The notes under the pieces: model-generated
The model's input: the letters and a program-made list of their open reading frames with translations, nothing else
Database searches by the model: none
Told to the model about the DNA's origin: nothing
Source of the DNA: Chytriomyces cf. hyalinus JEL632
Taxonomy: Eukaryota > Chytridiomycota > Chytridiomycetes > Chytridiales > Chytriomycetaceae
Length of the DNA stretch: 49,778 bases
Assembly (NCBI GenBank): GCA_025435555.1
Contig: JAIWWG010000156.1
Span: forward strand, 1-49,778
Direction of reading: 5' to 3'
Position numbers and translations under genes: made by a program
In this document: piece after piece, positions 24,912 through 49,778 of the stretch
Position numbering within the stretch: the stretch's first letter is position 1
How the letters are laid out: every line of letters starts with the position of its first letter

Positions 24912-25137
24912 TGTCAGATGTAGACATGCTCTCTCGTGTTTAAGTTCAATAAAAACAGTATAAAGTCAAACGTAAATGGACTTTATTCTGGGTCGATTAA
25001 TTTCGATCAAAACGGCACGTGTTTCAGATTGAAACAACGTTCGTGCAACGTCCCGCTTCCCTGAGCATTCATAGGCTATTGCTTAGTAGAGTTACCGAAG
25101 GTCTATCTTCGACGAGCTTGGTCCCTGGATCATGACA
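24912..25137 (+). repeat. Solo LTR (family D), copy 1
   Basis: 226 bases beginning TGTCAGATG and ending GGATCATGACA, matching the 226-base unit at 32787-33012 along its whole length. Terminal TGTCA/TGACA inverted ends identify it as an LTR. The flanks gcaaa and gtaaa may be a diverged 5-bp target duplication. It lies between the seven-TM gene start and tRNA-Leu(UAG), ending 122 bases upstream of the tRNA. Confidence 0.85.
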
Positions 25138-25259: not shown

Positions 25260-25341
25260 GGGCAAATGGCCGAGTGGTCTAAGGCGCCAGGTTTAGGCCC
25301 TGGTATCTCCGGATGCGTGGGTTCAAACCCCACTTTGCTCA
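25260..25341 (+). tRNA. tRNA-Leu (anticodon UAG)
   Basis: 82 bases. The acceptor stem GGGCAAA pairs with TTTGCTC. The D-arm starts TGGCCGAGTGG, the anticodon stem CCAGG/CCTGG encloses TTTAGGC (anticodon TAG), there is a long variable arm, and the T-arm GTGGGTTCAAACCCCAC pairs perfectly. A Pol III terminator (cttttaat) follows. No intron. Confidence 0.95.
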
Positions 25342-26624
25342 CGCCCTCTTTTAATATCATTTACATTATGCGGCACACATTTTGCGCATCACCAATCCAT
25401 GAAAGGCTAATCTCCTGGGATTTTATTTCCAAACCCAACAAGATGACCTGTTCAAAATGAATGTCATGGGCCTGCGCAGTATGACGATACGTTTATCTTA
25501 TGCCTTAGAAACTTGCAAACAATGCGCGCTTTAATTCGTCCCAAAATCGTCTTGACGTATTTAGTATCTGCAAAGACCCTTGACTTCACACAGTGGCTTT
25601 TTACACGCGCATTCAGGTTTTAATTTGTTACCTTTTTTTCCCGCGCAAGTTTGTCGTAACAGTTGCGTGGTACCCTGAACAACCATGCATTCTCAAGGTA
25701 GGCACAATGCAACGTCCCAGAGATTCATTGGTGTCCCTAATACCCTTTAGATTCCATCCCAACCCAACTGCCGACATAATCGCCCCCAAAATCACCATAT
25801 ATGCAACGTGTTGCGTGCGATATGCCTGTTGAATCCTAAGCATGGACTCGTTTGCCGTCGCTGGACTGTGGTGAAGCAACGTAAAAACTGCGCATGATCT
25901 GGCAATCCGACCTGCTGAGCCACCAAATTCACAAAAAAAAGGGTATAAAAAACAGGGGAGCGCACTTGAGTTGAAAAGCACATTCCTCTCAAGCCTATAT
26001 TGGCTAAGATCAAGTGTAGTATCTGTTCTATTTAGTGTGATAACTAAATCCATTATCATAATATTTTTTGGACCACTGTTTTCGGTCATCTGTGCTTGCA
26101 CAGACCCTGGAAAATGCGTGTGGCTGGTCTTTCACTGCCACCAGCTGACGCCGAGCATCCTGCTCTATTTTTACAAACGAAATGATGAAAGCCCAACTCC
26201 TCCCATTCCAATGTCTCTGATTCTGCGAACACTGACATCCTCTGCCTGCCCTTCTCCTGCTGTATGATTCTGTACTGCTCCTGAGCGCTTGATGGAAATA
26301 CTATCGACATTTTCTGAGATGATGCACAGCAAGTGAGTGAAGTAAGAAACTTCACCAGCATGAGAGAATGCTTTCATAAAGAGGCCCAACAAATAAACTA
26401 CATTCATCCCCTTGACGCTTCATCTCGAAGGTGTTTTAACAGCGCTGTACAGAAGAACAAGCAGACAGACATATCATCAGGATCTGCAGGGCAGAGAGAG
26501 TTGGAGAGTGTTTTACCATCACCCCAAAGGGAAGTGGAAGGGTGTTTGGGAACGGGTTGCAAAAATTGACTGCTCTTTTGTACGACAAAAGTGAACAGAG
26601 AACAGGTGAAGGAGGAAAAGAGGG
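25342..26624. other. Region between two tRNA genes; possible membrane-protein remnant
   Basis: No confident gene. On the minus strand, 26101-25628 contains one convincing hydrophobic helix (HVAYMVILGAIMSAVGLGWN). An overlapping frame at about 25850-25960 reads FYTLFFVNLVAQQVGLPDHAQFLR. The two could be pieces of a frame-broken membrane protein, but no intron model joined them. The remainder (26110-26620) shows nothing recognisable. Confidence 0.3.
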
Positions 26625-26707
26625 TGAACAGAGTGGGATTCGAACCCACGCCTATTACTAGACCACAACTTGAGTGTGGCGCCTTAGACCAACTCGGCCA
26701 TCTGTCC
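26625..26707 (-). tRNA. tRNA-Leu (anticodon CAA), copy 1
   Basis: 83 bases. The acceptor stem GGACAGA pairs with TCTGTTC. The D-arm is TGGCCGAGTTGG. The anticodon stem CCACA/TGTGG encloses CTCAAGT (anticodon CAA), there is a long variable arm, and the T-arm GTGGGTTCGAATCCCAC pairs. It is identical to 48141-48223. An LTR begins 8 bases upstream of its mature 5' end. Confidence 0.95.
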
Positions 26708-26715
26708 ATGCGAAA

Positions 26716-26907
26716 TGTTGCGTAATAACGCCATTTCCTCCATTGTGTCCATTTTACTTGACTTAAATTTTTCCTTCAAAATTCCCGAGATAGAAACTTC
26801 TCGAAAACAACAAAGTTCAAATCACCCTCACCACAGCAGTATAAAAGCCAGTGTCCTTCTACCAATAAAGATCATCTATCAACCAACATTGCTTTATTTC
26901 CGTAACA
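26716..26907 (+). repeat. LTR (family B), proximal copy
   Basis: 192 bases, TGTTGCGTAA...CCGTAACA, flanked on both sides by CGAAA (26711-26715 and 26908-26912). It contains a TATAAAA box and AATAAA in plus orientation, as expected of an LTR. About nine differences from the copy at 32484-32675, all within the first ~90 bases. No internal region of this family is present. Confidence 0.9.
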
Positions 26908-26912
26908 CGAAA

Positions 26913-27240
26913 TGATAGGGAATTGACCAAGAGCTGCGGCATGGCTACGTGATCAATTAAGGAGTTTGGATTGAGTTGGAGAGTGCTAAGAACAGAGAGA
27001 AGATTGAGAGGAGACTGATCTTTATTGAAGTGATAACGTGCGCTTTAAATAGCGTTACTGAATAAAGAGGAAAGAAACGATTGGTGATGAGGCGTTGTGG
27101 AGGTGATGTCATTGTGTACAGTCAAGAAACGATTGGTGATGAGGCATTGTGGAGGTGATGTCATTGTGTACGGTCAAGAAAAAGAGTGTCCATTGTTCTC
27201 AATTAGAGACGCGTGACGGAATCGAGTTGATTACGTAACA
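26913..27240 (-). repeat. 3' LTR (family A) of the Ty3/gypsy element
   Basis: Starts TGTTACGTAATC on the minus strand and ends CCCTATCA. Contains a 52-base tandem duplication (27072-27123 and 27124-27175), a CTATTTAAAG TATA-like element and AATAAAGATCAG for polyadenylation, all on the minus strand. Confidence 0.95.
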
Positions 27241-27984
27241 CCCGCCTCCAAGAGCGAACGCGATGAAAAAGGCAGTGAACTGGGTGGAGGTTTATCTTGT
27301 TGGATTCGACGGAGTAATTCTGGCGTAGCATTCAACCAACAGTTGAACACTGGATGATGATCCTTCCATTGCACAAGTACTTGTTGTTGACCTTCAAGAG
27401 TGCGGGAAGAAAGGACCTTGTCGATAGCCCGAACGGCAATAGACTGATGTTCAAGAGGATGCTTAGCGGCGTCAAAGAAGTAAGGTTTGAGTTTTTCAGG
27501 ATGGAAGACAGGGTGAATTCCCCAATCTCGTGGTAAGTCAAGCTTGCATGACAGGGCTGCTCCGACTAGTTCGATGATTCGGTAAGGTCCGGAGTATTGT
27601 TCTGAAAGTTTGTTGGTTTGGCGGTAACGAAGGTTGGGAGGTTTGAATTCCTTGGCGGATATAAGAACGAGGTCTCCGACTTGGAATGGTGAACGAAGGC
27701 GTTTTCGGTTTGCAATTGCAGCGTACTTGTCTTGTGAATCGCGAATTCGATCCTTGACGACTTGGTACTCAGCCCGAACGTCCTTGATGGTTAACGGGGC
27801 AGAGAAGGGTATGTCAATATTGATCATAGAGCGAGGATGTCGTCCGTATTCGAGGTAGAAAGGTGTGTAGCCAGTACTTGAGTTGACAGTGTCGTTGATA
27901 CCAAACTCAATCTTGGGCAAATGCTCGTCCCAGTCGTCTTGGTAAGGGGCGACAAAATGTCGGAGGGCTTGGAGGACCCAGTCG
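27231..27984 (-). CDS. Integrase C-terminus with GPY/F motif and chromodomain-like module (shifted frame)
   Basis: Continuation of Pol after the A8 frame break at 27985-27992. It opens with the end of the integrase core (...HLPKIEFGINDTVNSSTGYT, FYLEYGRHP) and then an SH3-like GPY/F segment, EQYSGPYRIIELVG. The tail has a chromodomain-like stretch (VLSSRTLEGQQQVLVQWKDH, FNCWL). Chromodomains in this clade bind methylated histones and guide insertion. One-base shift relative to the upstream Pol frame: either a mutation, an assembly slip in the homopolymer, or rarely a programmed shift. Confidence 0.85.
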
Positions 27985-30960
27985 TTTTTTTTGTTCAGTT
28001 TGGCCGTCAGTTTGTGGATGCGAGGAGGTAGAGATGGTGAGCTTTATCTTGAGGGAGTTGCAGAGTTCTTGCCAGAAGTTGGAGGTGAACTTGACGTCGC
28101 GGTCAGAGATGAAGTGGACTGGAATGCCGTGGTGAGGGAAGATGTGTAACTCAAACAGGTTGGCAATGTCGCGTGCAGTAGAGGTGGTGTGGCATGGGAT
28201 GAGTCTTGTGCGTTTAGTTCCAGAGTCGACGACTACCATAAGAGAATTGTATCCAGACTTGGTGAGTGGGAGCTTGGTCATGAAGTCCATTGAGCAGGTG
28301 TGCCATGGATAAGGTGGGACATCGTGAGGCTGGAGGAGTCCGTATGGAGCGTGACGAGCTACCTTGAGGCGTTGGCAGTTGTCACAGTTTTGGCAAAGGC
28401 GCTGGACGTCGCTGTGAAGCTTGGGCCAGTGGAAGTAGCGAGTGAGTCGTTCTGAGGTACGTTCCCAGTTGTTGTGGATGGCTGGACCGTAAGAGTGAGC
28501 TTTTTCAAGAAGTGAGTGACGGAGAGGGGCTGGGACGTAGAGACGGGCGTGAGTCTTGTCAACGTAGTGGAGGAGTCCATCTCGTAGGCGGTAACGTGCT
28601 ATCTGAGAGACTAGGTGCTTGGGAGCTTTGGATGGGTCGTTATCGAATGTGTCTGGATTCAGTGGATCAACAAGGTATTGTGCAATTTCTAGGAACTGAG
28701 GGTCGGTAGTGTTCATGTCCTTGATGTCGGCCGTGAGGTCATCAGTGATTGTCAAGGAGGTTGTATTGAGGAGAAGGTATGATTCTGGTACTTGGAGGAT
28801 GGTGTGGACAGAGTTCTTGTAGGTGTTGACTTGAACAGATGCATCTGTAGCGAAGCGGCGCCTTGACAGTGCGTCAGCAATGGTATTCCACTCCCCCGGT
28901 GTCCACTGAATCTGGAAATCGTAGGCGAGAAGGTCAGCGAGCCAACGGTGATGGACGGGGCGGAGCTTGGGTTGCGTGAGAATGTGGCGGAGGGACTGGT
29001 GGTCTGTGAAGGCGAGGACGTTGTTTCCGAGGAGGTACTGACGGTAGTATCTGAGACATTCGACGAGGGCGAGGATTTCACCCATGCAGGGATGATAACG
29101 AGTTTCTTCTGGCTTGAGTTTGCGGGAGTAGTAGGCGATGGGCTGATCGATGCCATTGGAGTCAGGCTGAGCAATGTATCCCCCAACAGCGCGGGCGGAC
29201 CAGTCAGTGTACAGGTGGACAGGAAGTTCTGGATTGAAGATGGCGAGCATGGCTGGGGATGAGAGGAGGGTCTTGATTTCGCGGAAGTGATGACGCGCTG
29301 TGTCATTCCATTTGTCGGTAAAGGAGGTTGTCTTGTGGTCTCGTAGGAGGTCAGAGAGAGGCGCGACAAGTGAGGCGTGACTTTTGATGAAGCGATGGAC
29401 AGTATTGGCAAGGCCGAGGAAGGAGCGGAGTTCTGAGAAAGAGGTAGGTTCCTCAAAATCTCTGATGGACTGAGTTCTGGAAGGAAGGACAGAGACTGAT
29501 CCTCTATTGATTTGATAACCGAGATATTCGAGTTGTGTCTGGAAGAAGGAACACTTGGAGAGGCGTAGGTGGAGTTTGTGGTTTTGGAGTCGCTGGAGTA
29601 CCATGTCGACATGGCGGAGATGGTCTTGTTCATTGTCAGAGAAGATGAGGATGTCGTCGATGTAGACTATGACAAAGACGTCAATGAAGTCTTGGAAGAT
29701 TGTGCTGAGTGTGGTCTGGAAAACACCTGGAGCGTTGGCGAGGCCAAAGGGCATAACAACCCATTCGTAGTGGCCGTATTTAGTGCGGAAGGCAGTTTTG
29801 GGGATGTCAGATTCTACAATCCTGATTTGATGGAAACCGGACTTGCAGTCGGCTTTGGTAAAGAATTTGGCCTTGGAGAGGCGGTCGAGGGATTCTAGGA
29901 TGTTGGGAAGGGCGGCGCGGTTCTTGACGGTCAGTCTGTTGATGGCGCGGTAGTCAAATACAAGGCGGAGTTTGTCTTTCTGTTTGACAAAGAAGACAGG
30001 AGCGCCAAAGGGCGAGGTGGAAGGTCTGATGCGGTGATGCTTGAGGAGGTAGGTAAGTTCTTCTTGAAGAGCCTTCAGTTCTGGAGCGCTCATGGGATAG
30101 ATGGGTCGGTAGGGAGGTTCAGCACTTGCTGTTGGATCGAGGTCAATTTTCATGTCAGTAGGTCGGGACGGAGGAAGGCCTTCAAAAGGCGCGAAGACAT
30201 CTGGGTACTTGGAGACCAGTTCTTGGACGTTAGGAGGGAGGGACTTGTGGACAGCTTCATCTTTTTCGTCGATCTCGGCTGAGGTAGTGGTGGTTGATAC
30301 TTCTTGTTCTTCAGGTATTATGGCACCAAGGAAGTCATCAGGCTGTAGGGTTTCAAGGAGGTTCAGAAATTGGTTGGCAGTAAGGATCTCCGGCGTGGAG
30401 CGTGGGGAGCGGCATTTCCAGCTGTGTGGACCAATGCGGACTTGGTTTGTCGGCCAGTCGATAGAGGGATTGTGGGCGTCAAGCCAGTCCTTTCCGAGGA
30501 TCAGGTCATACGCGAGTTCAGGAACGGTAGTGAAAGAGCGAGAGTCGCTAAAGGTAGTGTCATTTATTTTCAGTTTAAGGGTTTCGGTACGCTGGCCCTT
30601 AACTATGGATCCATCAGCTAGCTTGATCTTGCAGGCCTGAGGAATGAGAGATTTATCTTGGAGGAATGGTAGGTTGGAACGGATGAAACTGGGGTTGGCA
30701 CCAGAGTCAATGAGGATGGAAACATGATGATCGTTGATGGTTCCTTGGCAGATGAGGAGGCCAGGAGTGTCAGAATATGGGGCATAGTGTTCAGACTTGA
30801 CGTGGTACAGGGGGCGCTTGGGACGTGGGACTTGGACAGGAAAAACAGGGACAGTAACGGCAGTTAGATTGTCAGGTGGATTATCAAAGGGCAAGGCGGA
30901 GAAACGATTAGAGTTTGTGATCGCTATCTTCTTCTTCATCTTGGGCTTGAGTTGCGGCAT
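27907..30960 (-). CDS. Ty3/gypsy Pol polyprotein (protease, RT, RNase H, integrase)
   Basis: The frame is open from 31452 to 27907, but the domain-bearing part begins near the end of gag. Protease active site ILIDSGANPSF lies near 30706. RT contains LRLVFDYRAINRLT, FTKADCKSGFHQIR, MPFGLANAPGVFQ and the catalytic VYIDDILIFS near 29660. RNase H contains LYTDWSARAVGGYI and AFTDHQSLRHIL. Integrase has an HHCC zinc motif ending CQNCDNCQRLK, then MDFMTKL, ISDRDVKFTSNFW and QTDGQTEQ for the D,D,E triad. The frame is one base downstream of gag, so expression would need a +1 shift (or an unseen splice) in the gag-pol overlap. The call is firm; the start is inferred. Confidence 0.92.
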   Translation of the reverse strand: MPQLKPKMKKKIAITNSNRFSALPFDNPPDNLTAVTVPVFPVQVPRPKRPLYHVKSEHYAPYSDTPGLLICQGTINDHHVSILIDSGANPSFIRSNLPFLQDKSLIPQACKIKLADGSIVKGQRTETLKLKINDTTFSDSRSFTTVPELAYDLILGKDWLDAHNPSIDWPTNQVRIGPHSWKCRSPRSTPEILTANQFLNLLETLQPDDFLGAIIPEEQEVSTTTTSAEIDEKDEAVHKSLPPNVQELVSKYPDVFAPFEGLPPSRPTDMKIDLDPTASAEPPYRPIYPMSAPELKALQEELTYLLKHHRIRPSTSPFGAPVFFVKQKDKLRLVFDYRAINRLTVKNRAALPNILESLDRLSKAKFFTKADCKSGFHQIRIVESDIPKTAFRTKYGHYEWVVMPFGLANAPGVFQTTLSTIFQDFIDVFVIVYIDDILIFSDNEQDHLRHVDMVLQRLQNHKLHLRLSKCSFFQTQLEYLGYQINRGSVSVLPSRTQSIRDFEEPTSFSELRSFLGLANTVHRFIKSHASLVAPLSDLLRDHKTTSFTDKWNDTARHHFREIKTLLSSPAMLAIFNPELPVHLYTDWSARAVGGYIAQPDSNGIDQPIAYYSRKLKPEETRYHPCMGEILALVECLRYYRQYLLGNNVLAFTDHQSLRHILTQPKLRPVHHRWLADLLAYDFQIQWTPGEWNTIADALSRRRFATDASVQVNTYKNSVHTILQVPESYLLLNTTSLTITDDLTADIKDMNTTDPQFLEIAQYLVDPLNPDTFDNDPSKAPKHLVSQIARYRLRDGLLHYVDKTHARLYVPAPLRHSLLEKAHSYGPAIHNNWERTSERLTRYFHWPKLHSDVQRLCQNCDNCQRLKVARHAPYGLLQPHDVPPYPWHTCSMDFMTKLPLTKSGYNSLMVVVDSGTKRTRLIPCHTTSTARDIANLFELHIFPHHGIPVHFISDRDVKFTSNFWQELCNSLKIKLTISTSSHPQTDGQTEQKKRLGPPSPPTFCRPLPRRLGRAFAQD

Positions 30961-32062
30961 TGTTAATTCTGGAAGTGGATGGCTTGGCGGAGAGCTGGGC
31001 TTGACGGGCACGGAGCTTGGGGCAGTGGTCGGTGTCGTGGTCCTTGGCTTGGCAGTAGACGCACCAACCTCTGGAGCGGAAGTGGGCTTTCTGTTCTGGG
31101 GTGAGACGTGGGTAGGGAGATGTTTGCTGAGTGTTTCCAAGGTCCATAGGGTCGGATGAGTCGGGGATGGAGTTCTTGAGTGTATGGCCTTGGGCTGGTC
31201 GAAAGGACTGTGTGCGTGTGGTGGAGGAAGTTGCGGTATTTTTACGAGTGTCGGCGGCGGTACGTTTATTGTGGCGGTAGGTGAGATCATCAAGTTTCTC
31301 AGCTTCATACTGAAGGTGGTCAAGATTGTCTTCAATAGCAAAAATGGCAGGATTACTACGGATGTGGAACTTGAGACCTTGGAGGTATTTGACGCAGAGA
31401 TGCCTGGCTGGGTAATCGATTCCTGAGGCGGCAATGGCAGAGACAAGTTCATTGAATTTGCAGGAGTAGGTTACTGCTGAGCTGGTTTGTTGGAGGTCCT
31501 CCATGGCTTCGATAGCTTGTTTCAAGCTCAGATGAGAACCGAAAGTTCTCTTGATCCAGGCGGCGTATTCGTTCCAGGACATATAGAATCGTTCTGTTTC
31601 GGACAGGCGGCGCCAGTATATGCGTGCGTTACTGCATAGGCCTTCGGAGACAAAATGTACGTATGTTGGTTGGTCTTGTTTAGTAATGTGGTCAGTAGAT
31701 AGAGCGAAACCATGGAGTCTGCAGGTTGAGGATGAGCGATCGAGGTAATCGTCGAGGTAGTTTTGTATTTCATGGGCTGGCCTATTTCGATGGTTCCCAG
31801 AGAATTCGAGAGGTTTGATTGATGGCATTCTGAAGATAGGTAGTCGACGTTGAGCTGGGACTGGGGCATTAGATTCGTCCAGGATGGCCTGGTTGATAGT
31901 TGGGGCTGGTACTGGTACTGGAGGGTTGAGAGGTTCGCGTTCACGTAGGGTAGTTACTTCAGCAAACAGTCTTTGGACAGCTTCAGTCAGTTGGGCCAAC
32001 TGAGTTTCGTACTGCTGGATGATGTGGTCTTGATTACGGTCATTTGGGGTTTCTGGGTTCAT
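30908..32062 (-). CDS. Ty3/gypsy Gag protein
   Basis: 384 residues from the first ATG at 32062. The N-terminal coiled coil is IIQQYETQLAQLTEAVQRLF. The retrotransposon gag core follows (EIQNYLDDYLDR, YWRRLSETERFYMSWNEYA, KYLQGLKFHIRSNP). One CCHC zinc knuckle, CVYCQAKDHDTDHCP, lies near the C-terminus, and an acidic tail ends the protein. It would assemble the virus-like particle and package element RNA. The frame is intact. Confidence 0.92.
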   Translation of the reverse strand: MNPETPNDRNQDHIIQQYETQLAQLTEAVQRLFAEVTTLREREPLNPPVPVPAPTINQAILDESNAPVPAQRRLPIFRMPSIKPLEFSGNHRNRPAHEIQNYLDDYLDRSSSTCRLHGFALSTDHITKQDQPTYVHFVSEGLCSNARIYWRRLSETERFYMSWNEYAAWIKRTFGSHLSLKQAIEAMEDLQQTSSAVTYSCKFNELVSAIAASGIDYPARHLCVKYLQGLKFHIRSNPAIFAIEDNLDHLQYEAEKLDDLTYRHNKRTAADTRKNTATSSTTRTQSFRPAQGHTLKNSIPDSSDPMDLGNTQQTSPYPRLTPEQKAHFRSRGWCVYCQAKDHDTDHCPKLRARQAQLSAKPSTSRINNAATQAQDEEEDSDHKL

Positions 32063-32150
32063 TATGGACGGCTGGAAGGCAAGTATTTCTTTGGGACTTA
32101 GACGGTTGGTTGGAGGTTTCTTGGATGGAGGGATTTCCGATGCTACCAAT

Positions 32151-32478
32151 TGATAGGGAATTGACCAAGAGCTGCGGCGTGGCTACGTGATCAATTAAGG
32201 AGTTTGGATTGAGTTGGAGAGTGCTAAGAACAGAGAGAAGATTGAGAGGAGACTGATCTTTATTGAAGTGATAACGTGCGCTTTAAATAGCGTTACTGAA
32301 TAAAGAGGAAAGAAACGATTGGTGATGAGGCGTTGTGGAGGTGATGTCATTGTGTACAGTCAAGAAACGATTGGTGATGAGGCATTGTGGAGGTGATGTC
32401 ATTGTGTACGGTTAAGAAAAAGAGTGTCCATTGTTCTCAATTAGAGACGCGTGACGGAATCGAGTTGATTACGTAACA
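32151..32478 (-). repeat. 5' LTR (family A) of the Ty3/gypsy element
   Basis: 328 bases, two differences from the 3' LTR. It is followed on its distal side by CGAAA (32479-32483) and then directly by an LTR of family B. Confidence 0.95.
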
Positions 32479-32483
32479 CGAAA

Positions 32484-32675
32484 TGTTGCGTAACAGCGCC
32501 ACTTGATCCATTGTGTCCATTTTACTTGACTTTAATTTTTCCTTCAAAAATCCGGAGATAGAAACTTCTCGAAAACAACAAAGTTCAAATCACCCTCACC
32601 ACAGCAGTATAAAAGCCAGTGTCCTTCTACCAATAAAGATCATCTATCAACCAACATTGCTTTATTTCCGTAACA
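32484..32675 (+). repeat. LTR (family B), distal copy
   Basis: 192 bases with TATAAAA and AATAAA, flanked by CGAAA at 32479-32483 and 32676-32680. Same orientation as the proximal copy at 26716-26907. Confidence 0.9.
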
Positions 32676-32680
32676 CGAAA

Positions 32681-33188
32681 TCTCCGAGAATAGGTTAATT
32701 AGTACTTAGAGAATAGTTCAACTCCTGAAACTGGGTTCTTGACTATTCAGAGGCTGGACTTGGACTGCTTTCGTACAGGAGAGAGATGTCAGAGTTTGAC
32801 GCAGTCTCTCGTGTTTATGTTCGATAAAGGAAGTATAAAGTCAGGTGTTCACAGACTTTTTTCTTGGTCGATTAATTTCGATCAAATGGCATCAGTTTCA
32901 GATTGAAACAACGATGGTGCAACGCCCTGCTTCCCTGAGCTTTCATAGGCTGTAGCTTAGATGAAGTCACCGAAGGTGTATCTACAACGAAATTGATCCA
33001 TGAATCATGACAAGAGATAGAGAGTAGTAAGGGAGTTATGGAGAGACTGATCTTTGTTGGAGAAAAAGGGCAGGCTTAAATAGGAGTTTCTGGAACTAAT
33101 CACAAAGTGAAACAGTTGGAAAATAGTTTGGAGATTAGAAGGGAGAGGTTTGGGTGTGTTGGAATTGGTTCAAAATAATTACGTAACA
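32681..33188 (+). repeat. LTR (family C), copy 1, interrupted by a solo LTR
   Basis: Shares actggg/cttcttgactattcagaggctgg and the block from agagagtagt to ggttcaaaata with 48233-48474. It ends ATTACGTAACA like LTR family A. Its interior is split by a 226-base LTR of family D. The left boundary is unclear because sequence right after CGAAA (tctccgag) does not begin TG. Confidence 0.75.
32787..33012 (+). repeat. Solo LTR (family D), copy 2, nested in LTR C
   Basis: 226 bases, TGTCAGAGTTTG...AATCATGACA, with AGAGA duplicated on each side (32782-32786 and 33013-33017). Deleting the unit and one AGAGA restores the continuous sequence seen in the uninterrupted copy near 48310. Confidence 0.92.
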
Positions 33189-47989: not shown

Positions 47990-48140
47990 TTTGGCTGTGT
48001 TTATGAAAATGGCAATGTCAAATCTTTCACTTTCACAGACAGCGCTGATCAACAATACGCTCGCGTAGAGTACTCGGTCCCGGTCAAAATGAACAGACAG
48101 GCAGCTCGTCCAGCAAACAATCGTCGAGTGATAAAACGGG

Positions 48141-48223
48141 TGAACAGAGTGGGATTCGAACCCACGCCTATTACTAGACCACAACTTGAGTGTGGCGCCT
48201 TAGACCAACTCGGCCATCTGTCC
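48141..48223 (-). tRNA. tRNA-Leu (anticodon CAA), copy 2
   Basis: Identical over all 83 bases to the gene at 26625-26707. Lies 151 bases upstream of the inhibitor-2 start codon. An LTR of family C begins 9 bases upstream of its mature 5' end. Confidence 0.95.
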
Positions 48224-49263: not shown

Positions 49264-49778
49264 TAAAGGTTAAGTCTCCCTGATTCATCTCTTATTCTCT
49301 ACTGCAGATAAAGAAGAGTCACGCACCTCACCATTCCACCAACCTCAATACATATGGGCATGAATTATGACATTGAGTAGGGTAAACGTCTAGTAGATAC
49401 TATAACAAGGAATGAATACACGAATACACGTGTTCTATGAAGGGTGTGGACTTGTAGATGATGATAGCTTATTTCACTACATGACTTCAACTATTCTTGC
49501 TCTGATCAAGCATAAAGATGGTTGAAAGTAATTGTCTGGAATATATATGATGCTGGCCTAGTTGTTAAGGTTCACGACTACAGACCAACAGGTCCCTGGT
49601 TCAACCCACACTGCTGCCAACTTCATGCAGCTATCTTCTGATCTTTATAGAGAAATAAGCAGAAGAAGAAGAAATAGAAATCAACTTGGAAAAGTATTCT
49701 ATTACTACTTTTGTATGACTAATATGTCAAGCCAGTCAAGCAATTAATCAATAACTTACCCAGTGTGGGGATATTAAT
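49221..49778 (+). repeat. Dispersed repeat with tRNA-like promoter, copy 2
   Basis: Matches 1555-2110 closely, in the same orientation, and runs off the right edge. A box TGGCCTAGTTGTTAAGG at 49554 and B box GGTTCAACCC at 49598 are 44 bases apart and nearer the tRNA consensus than in copy 1. Confidence 0.85.
49554..49608 (+). promoter_or_regulatory. tRNA-like internal Pol III promoter, copy 2
   Basis: A box, a D-loop/anticodon-like middle, an AGGTCCCT segment and B box are in tRNA order and spacing. The T-stem does not pair, so it is a tRNA-derived head rather than a tRNA gene. Confidence 0.65.

Follow-up and report, generated by a model that had tools for sequence, protein, structure and literature searches.

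Computational analysis of a 49,778-nucleotide stretch of Chytriomyces cf. hyalinus JEL632 DNA (hereafter the window; C64 in our numbering of contigs) uncovered a Pol III gene fronted by a layered pile of LTR retrotransposons. With a probability of roughly 85%, we attribute the pile to serial, Pol III-guided, Ty3-like integration, in which the newest element comes to lie nearest the tRNA gene. Read outward from tRNA-Leu(CAA), the pile consists of ATG, CGAAA, the solo LTR B1, CGAAA, the element A, CGAAA, the solo LTR B2 and a last CGAAA (Table 1). A runs in the direction of the tRNA gene, and B1 and B2 run against it. A preliminary description of this DNA had reported the same pentamer at all four junctions, a complete Ty3/gypsy element flanked by the two LTR-B copies, and 2 differences in 328 positions between the LTRs of A, all of which the coordinates and alignments bear out. 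Two of its details needed correction: the 8 bases that it placed between the tRNA gene and the first CGAAA already include that pentamer (ATG plus CGAAA), and the alignment of B1 with B2 has 8 mismatches in 192 positions (95.833% identity), not about 9. The 5' end of the tRNA gene was placed at 26708 by ARAGORN, and Rfam (RF00005, 57.7 bits) gave 26625-26707. CGAAA occurs at 164 sites in the window, counting both strands, against 140 expected, and this general abundance is no explanation for four copies situated exactly at four LTR edges.

Table 1. Features of the window, with positions numbered from its first nucleotide
Feature	Position	Strand	Source or remark
Second LTR of family D (80%)	24912..25137	+	122 bp upstream of tRNA-Leu(TAG)
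tRNA-Leu(TAG)	25260..25342	+	ARAGORN, Rfam
U2 spliceosomal RNA gene	25982-26160		Rfam; between the neighbouring tRNA-Leu genes
tRNA-Leu(CAA), target gene	26622..26708	-	ARAGORN; 5' end towards the stack
CGAAA, target duplication on tRNA side	26711..26715	.	sequence
B1, solo LTR of family B, 192 bp	26716..26907	+	young subfamily; 3 private changes
CGAAA, B1/A junction	26908..26912	.
Element A, Ty3/gypsy, 5566 bp	26913..32478	-	in the tRNA's direction
LTRs of A, 328 bp each	26913-27240 and 32151-32478	-
Remaining integrase of A, other frame	27231-28043	-
Polypurine tract adjoining 3' LTR of A	27241..27252	-	sequence
pol ORF of A	27907-31452	-	protease, RT, RNase H, first part of integrase
gag ORF of A	30908-32062	-
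Putative primer-binding region of A	32139..32150	-	sequence
CGAAA, A/B2 junction	32479..32483	.
B2, solo LTR of family B, 192 bp	32484..32675	+	older subfamily; nearest copy C218:145623 (1 difference)
CGAAA, outer duplication of B2	32676..32680	.
Old degraded LTR of family C	32681..33188	+	near edge placed by eye
Solo LTR of Ty1/copia family D	32787..33012	+	inside the family C LTR, splitting it; 5-bp duplication AGAGA
Second tRNA-Leu(CAA)	48139..48223	-	ARAGORN
Repeat with B-box-like stretch	49546-49640

Element A is an LTR retrotransposon of the Ty3/gypsy group (Metaviridae), with protease, reverse transcriptase (RT), RNase H and integrase in that order in its pol, LTRs of the form TG...CA and a 5-bp target duplication, CGAAA, on both sides. 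In its 1181-residue ORF, Pfam placed gag-asp_proteas at 236-324, RVT_1 at 490-648, RT_RNaseH at 741-844, H2C2 at 973-1030 and rve at 1051-1145, the first and the last of these with scores slightly below the cut-off. The remainder of the integrase lies in another frame, so that the pol of this copy is interrupted within the integrase. The best PDB match of the A pol was Ty3 Gag-Pol in the intasome entry 7q5b (E = 4.6e-107, strongest over the RT-RNase H stretch), which was also the best match of the C-terminal integrase piece of A and of the B integrase. Both integrases end in an SH3_Tf2-1 domain, and the signal for a C-terminal chromodomain is weak (Pfam Chromo E = 0.013 for A and 0.023 for B, both below the cut-off); an AlphaFold model of a 270-residue integrase fragment had a mean pLDDT of 32.1, too low for use. 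The integrase of a B element on C232 is 64% (161/250) and 60% (140/234) identical to the two integrase pieces of A. The polypurine tract motif of A also precedes the 3' LTRs of B, and the putative primer-binding region after the 5' LTR of A (TGGTAGCATC) is nearly identical in B elements. A and B are hence sister families with different LTRs, and the integrase identity rules out that they are unrelated, as they had at first been called.

Searches of the organism's own genome returned at least 41 matches to B and at least 47 to A, these being lower bounds since 40 candidates each, of 56, 75 and 88, were scored. In a table compiled by hand, with rows chosen for an adjacent tRNA gene, 37 insertions (20 of A, 16 of B and one of a further family, E) at genes of 22 isoacceptor types have their LTR edge 6-11 bp upstream of the mature tRNA 5' end, at a mean distance of 8.35 bp (sd 1.12). 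Both ends could be read in 32 of them, and 27 of the 32 carry perfect 5-bp duplications, with 26 different sequences; the five imperfect cases are C111a and C176 (4-bp match), C184 (an array) and two A elements on C207. The target is therefore a position relative to the tRNA gene and not a sequence: A and B insert at a nearly fixed few base pairs upstream of many different tRNA genes, and CGAAA is rejected as a target motif; the earlier statement that both integrases had chosen the same pentamer is not supported. The chance of a random point falling in a 6-bp zone of this kind is about 6e-5 with 400 tRNA genes and 3e-4 with 1887. Viewed from the side of the tRNA genes, 7 of 40, examined from the best 63 by Rfam score among 1887 first-look candidates, are preceded, at about 7-11 bp, by the edge of a known LTR.

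The alternative that both integrases prefer CGAAA-like pentamers, with tRNA proximity being secondary, could draw on the duplication CTTCG at C65, which reads CGAAG outward from the tRNA and so comes near CGAAA, and on the somewhat uneven base counts of the 27 duplications. Against it stand the 26 different pentamers, a tRNA distance that varies by only about 1 bp, and the many CGAAA sites in the window, where the listed A and B matches nevertheless fall only within the stack; we regard it as very improbable.

The preliminary description had proposed examining other copies for random target duplications and for a lack of tRNA proximity. The duplications do vary by site, but the proximity is pronounced: in a hand count of about 61 A and B units, 36 lie beside a tRNA gene at 6-11 bp and 11 lie deeper in stacks fronted by one. 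Three others precede repeats that are tRNA-like to the eye, two have no tRNA gene within 1.5 kb (C59, and C173 near 260 kb), and nine were set aside because of a contig end, an unseen end or an LTR common to two elements. At C59 an E LTR lies beside B and there is no tRNA, and at C173 near 260 kb there is a weak B-box-like stretch. Rfam searches (E up to 0.5) of 20 loci lacking an ARAGORN tRNA recovered no Pol III gene, and their single match, MIR4371 in L039, is taken as a chance hit on LTR sequence. The tRNA-like repeats, on C25, C226 and C219, have A- and B-box-like stretches to the eye, with no tRNA found by Rfam in L024, L032, L005 and L015. On C25 (25463; L024) and C226 (122233; L032) there are copies of one repeat in which the same AACTC holds an insertion of B in one case and of A in the other, and SINE-like repeats of this kind may be further targets. 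The repeat at the far end of the window recurs on C219 near 69000 (L015), one copy adjoining a B element; judged by eye, with no Rfam match, it may be a SINE family derived from a tRNA.

Relative to the tRNA gene, 14 A insertions are in the same and 6 in the opposite orientation, as against 3 and 13 for B (Fisher P = 0.003). That A and B prefer opposite orientations in one slot is a reading which, taken jointly with the view of tRNA genes as recorders given at the end, we consider somewhat better than an even bet.

The architecture seen in the window recurs elsewhere in the genome with other pentamers. Stacks with a single shared pentamer include: 1) C65 at tRNA-Thr (CTTCG; B, A). 2) C213 at tRNA-Asn (GCTCA; B, A2). 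3) C188 at tRNA-Arg (ATGTG; A2, A1). 4) C224 at tRNA-Val (TCAAC; A4, B). In others the targets are shifted by 1 bp (C166, C57, and C188 near 252 kb) or by 2 bp (C63, C223 and C156), the shifts at C63 and C223 being less sure because the far side of the older element at C63 lies beyond the contig end and the older duplication at C223 has one mismatch. Altogether, 12 adjacent pairs in 11 stacks, compiled by hand with C184, C59, C2 and all C-layer junctions left out, have targets that are identical in 6 cases, 1 bp apart in 3 and 2 bp apart in 3. Independent draws from the observed scatter would give an identical target with a frequency of 0.25 per pair (P = 0.056 for 6 of 12), and a target within 2 bp, as in 12 of 12 pairs, with one of 0.89. 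The pentamer is thus not fixed, and precise spacing can bring about its exact reuse as a side effect. With every insertion a copy of the target pentamer stays next to the tRNA gene, which regenerates the slot. The proposal that elements integrated serially, each at a target restored by the one before it, is supported.

Recombination has also left its mark at such loci. At C184 (80639-86870; L046, L060), which was left out of the pairs as possibly a product of recombination, A and two more A LTRs precede tRNA-Pro, the three LTRs being set apart by the 4-bp AAGT. On C65 (27932-33410; L040, L004), the two LTRs of an A element are of different subtypes and lengths (328 and 276 bp), with CTTCG flanking the element on both sides; it is a recombinant, perhaps of two elements once stacked there. 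Two opposite A elements on C207 (72910-78476 and 116644-122209; L042, L048, L035, L047) have mismatched duplications of their own and flanks that correspond crosswise (AAGCA; TAACT/AGTTA), a hallmark of recombination between the two elements that has inverted about 40 kb. The exchanged duplications on C207 and the hybrid element on C65, along with the general difficulty of assembling repeats, lend something to the notion that the junctions in the window reflect an assembly artefact or gene conversion between tRNA loci. Yet the same architecture exists with other pentamers on other contigs, and the duplications at C166, C156 and C188 are shifted just as insertion predicts, so that we consider this explanation no more credible than a preference for CGAAA-like pentamers.

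These three shifted stacks also bear on the order of insertion. At C166 the duplication of B includes the first base of the A2 LTR, a base unlike that at the original site beyond A2; at C156 the duplication of A3 includes the first two bases of the E LTR; and at C188 near 252 kb the duplication of F includes the first base of B. A newcomer whose duplication includes the first base or bases of the older LTR would have landed on the tRNA side of it, and entry of the newcomer on that side is strongly indicated in all three stacks (3/3), two of which rest on one base. Stacks C63, C223 and C57 have a similar look, with an order left undecided by their duplications. Across ten stacks, from a list compiled by hand, the layers run outward from the tRNA gene as A together with young B, then E, old B and C, with 0 conflicts in 19 pairs. 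Random reorderings gave no conflict in 2 of 200000 cases for this fixed order and in 52 of 200000 for any order, the classes having been set after seeing the data. The list leaves out stacks with one class only (C188 near 618 kb, C63, C166, C213, C223 and C184), the stack of F over B (C188 near 252 kb), C1 and C59, and it puts the B of C187 in the young class, though 3 and 5 changes separate its LTRs from the young copies. B of the old type forms the deeper layer in C224 and C57 too.

Within the window, B1 falls in the young B clade, in which many copies are identical, and B2 in an older subfamily with variants in common with C7, C57, C224 and C232. They are therefore independent insertions, and their subfamilies rule out both that they are the two LTRs of one element and that they are copies of one B. 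The pentamers at the four junctions of the stack are identical and cannot by themselves show the order of insertion; under the tRNA-side rule, we infer that family C came first, then B2, A and B1. The private changes, 3 in the 192 bp of B1 as against 2 in the 656 bp of the A LTRs (binomial P = 0.08), speak mildly against B1 as the youngest layer. The family C LTR adjoins the outer CGAAA, and its far side is GTAGT instead of CGAAA, which counts against the serial history. At the second tRNA-Leu(CAA) of the window, an old C-type LTR starts about 12 bp upstream (edge placed by eye).

The private changes speak mildly for the alternative history raised in the preliminary description, namely that a tandem B-CGAAA-B array was later split by A at its middle CGAAA. 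Such an array would have arisen first, by insertion or B-B recombination; that LTR-pentamer-LTR arrays of one family do exist, as at C184, is in keeping with it. The placement of B1 and B2 in different subfamilies disfavours such an array. Moreover, its middle CGAAA would have lain about 205 bp from the tRNA gene, and no A or B copy examined that has a tRNA in its flank lies that far away unless another element intervenes, while the order at C166, C156 and C188 is the opposite one. We therefore think it unlikely, though less so than the pentamer-preference and artefact explanations, and retain serial entry from the tRNA side as the preferred history.

A second address upstream of tRNA genes is occupied by family D, a Ty1/copia family, as its element on C232 (L084) encodes a copia-type reverse transcriptase (RVT_2, E = 5.3e-42). 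Among 20 D copies with a tRNA gene, 18 lie 90-139 bp upstream of it and the median of all is about 118 bp; these distances were compiled by hand, those of the second D copy of the window, L045, L051 and C65 after subtracting later insertions. The two outliers lie at 215 bp (C65, hand-derived) and 262 bp (C13, with a B-like LTR between). The D loci near tRNA genes include the two in the window, L084-L087, L100-L103, L105, L108 and L110-L114, and two further weak D matches (77-80%), outside the 20 counted, precede tRNA genes by about 93 and 106 bp. No tRNA was found in the sequence stretches examined around the D copies in L083, L088, L104, L106, L107, L109 and L116.

By analogy with yeast Ty3, the A and B integrases would find their target through the Pol III initiation complex, with TFIIIB as the most likely guide; contacts with TFIIIB and a chromodomain 'ruler' have been described for Ty3 (PMC8632968). 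The integrase would cut the two strands 5 bp apart at an almost constant spacing from the tRNA gene, the duplication would keep the same pentamer beside it and regenerate the slot, and the next element would enter between the tRNA gene and the resident. Both B copies of the window would later have become solo LTRs through LTR-LTR recombination. Repeated insertion further suggests that an LTR adjoining the coding region does not keep Pol III factors from assembling there.

Targeting of the Ty3 type is well known. A and B share with Ty3 of Saccharomyces cerevisiae the RT-RNase H-integrase order of the Ty3/gypsy group and insertion at the Pol III start region, and differ in distance, which is given as about 15-17 bp for Ty3 (PMC5006619, PMC5014426) as against 6-11 bp here, measured from the mature tRNA end. 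Tj1 of Schizosaccharomyces japonicus, a genomic copy of which is flanked by a 5-bp duplication, inserts at almost the same distance as A and B, 5-11 bp upstream of the 5' end of the mature tRNA; its insertions at Pol III genes are all reported in the orientation of the gene (PMC4600332), whereas those of A and B are mixed. DGLT-A, among the tRNA-targeting elements of dictyostelids, is placed 13-33 bp upstream, and the excerpts consulted describe no pentamer-level order for it. Family D resembles Ty1/copia of S. cerevisiae in being a copia-type element upstream of Pol III genes and outside the Ty3-type slot, but Ty1 is described as using a window of about 1 kb (PMC5911963), in contrast to the narrow band of D. 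The separate addresses of D and of A and B resemble the division between Ty1 and Ty3 in yeast (PMC5911963, PMC8632968). Several elements at one tRNA gene are already mentioned in a footnote of PMC5006619, and the titles and abstract openings returned by a literature search describe no pentamer-level ordering of stacked tRNA-targeted elements.

In a broader sense, we lean slightly towards regarding these tRNA genes as stratigraphic recorders, in which the slot is regenerated to within 0-2 bp, entry is from the tRNA side, Pol III competence is kept, a copia address exists at about 118 bp and the activity of families can be read from the layers. The stacks offer a view, at the level of base pairs, of the way in which integration guided by Pol III can restore the target that it uses, with the insertions sorting by age. 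If so, they would provide a clock-free relative chronology of retrotransposon families, as well as natural evidence that a tRNA gene goes on recruiting its factors after repeated adjacent insertions. The division between a Ty3-type slot at about 8 bp and a copia-type address at about 118 bp parallels that of budding yeast.
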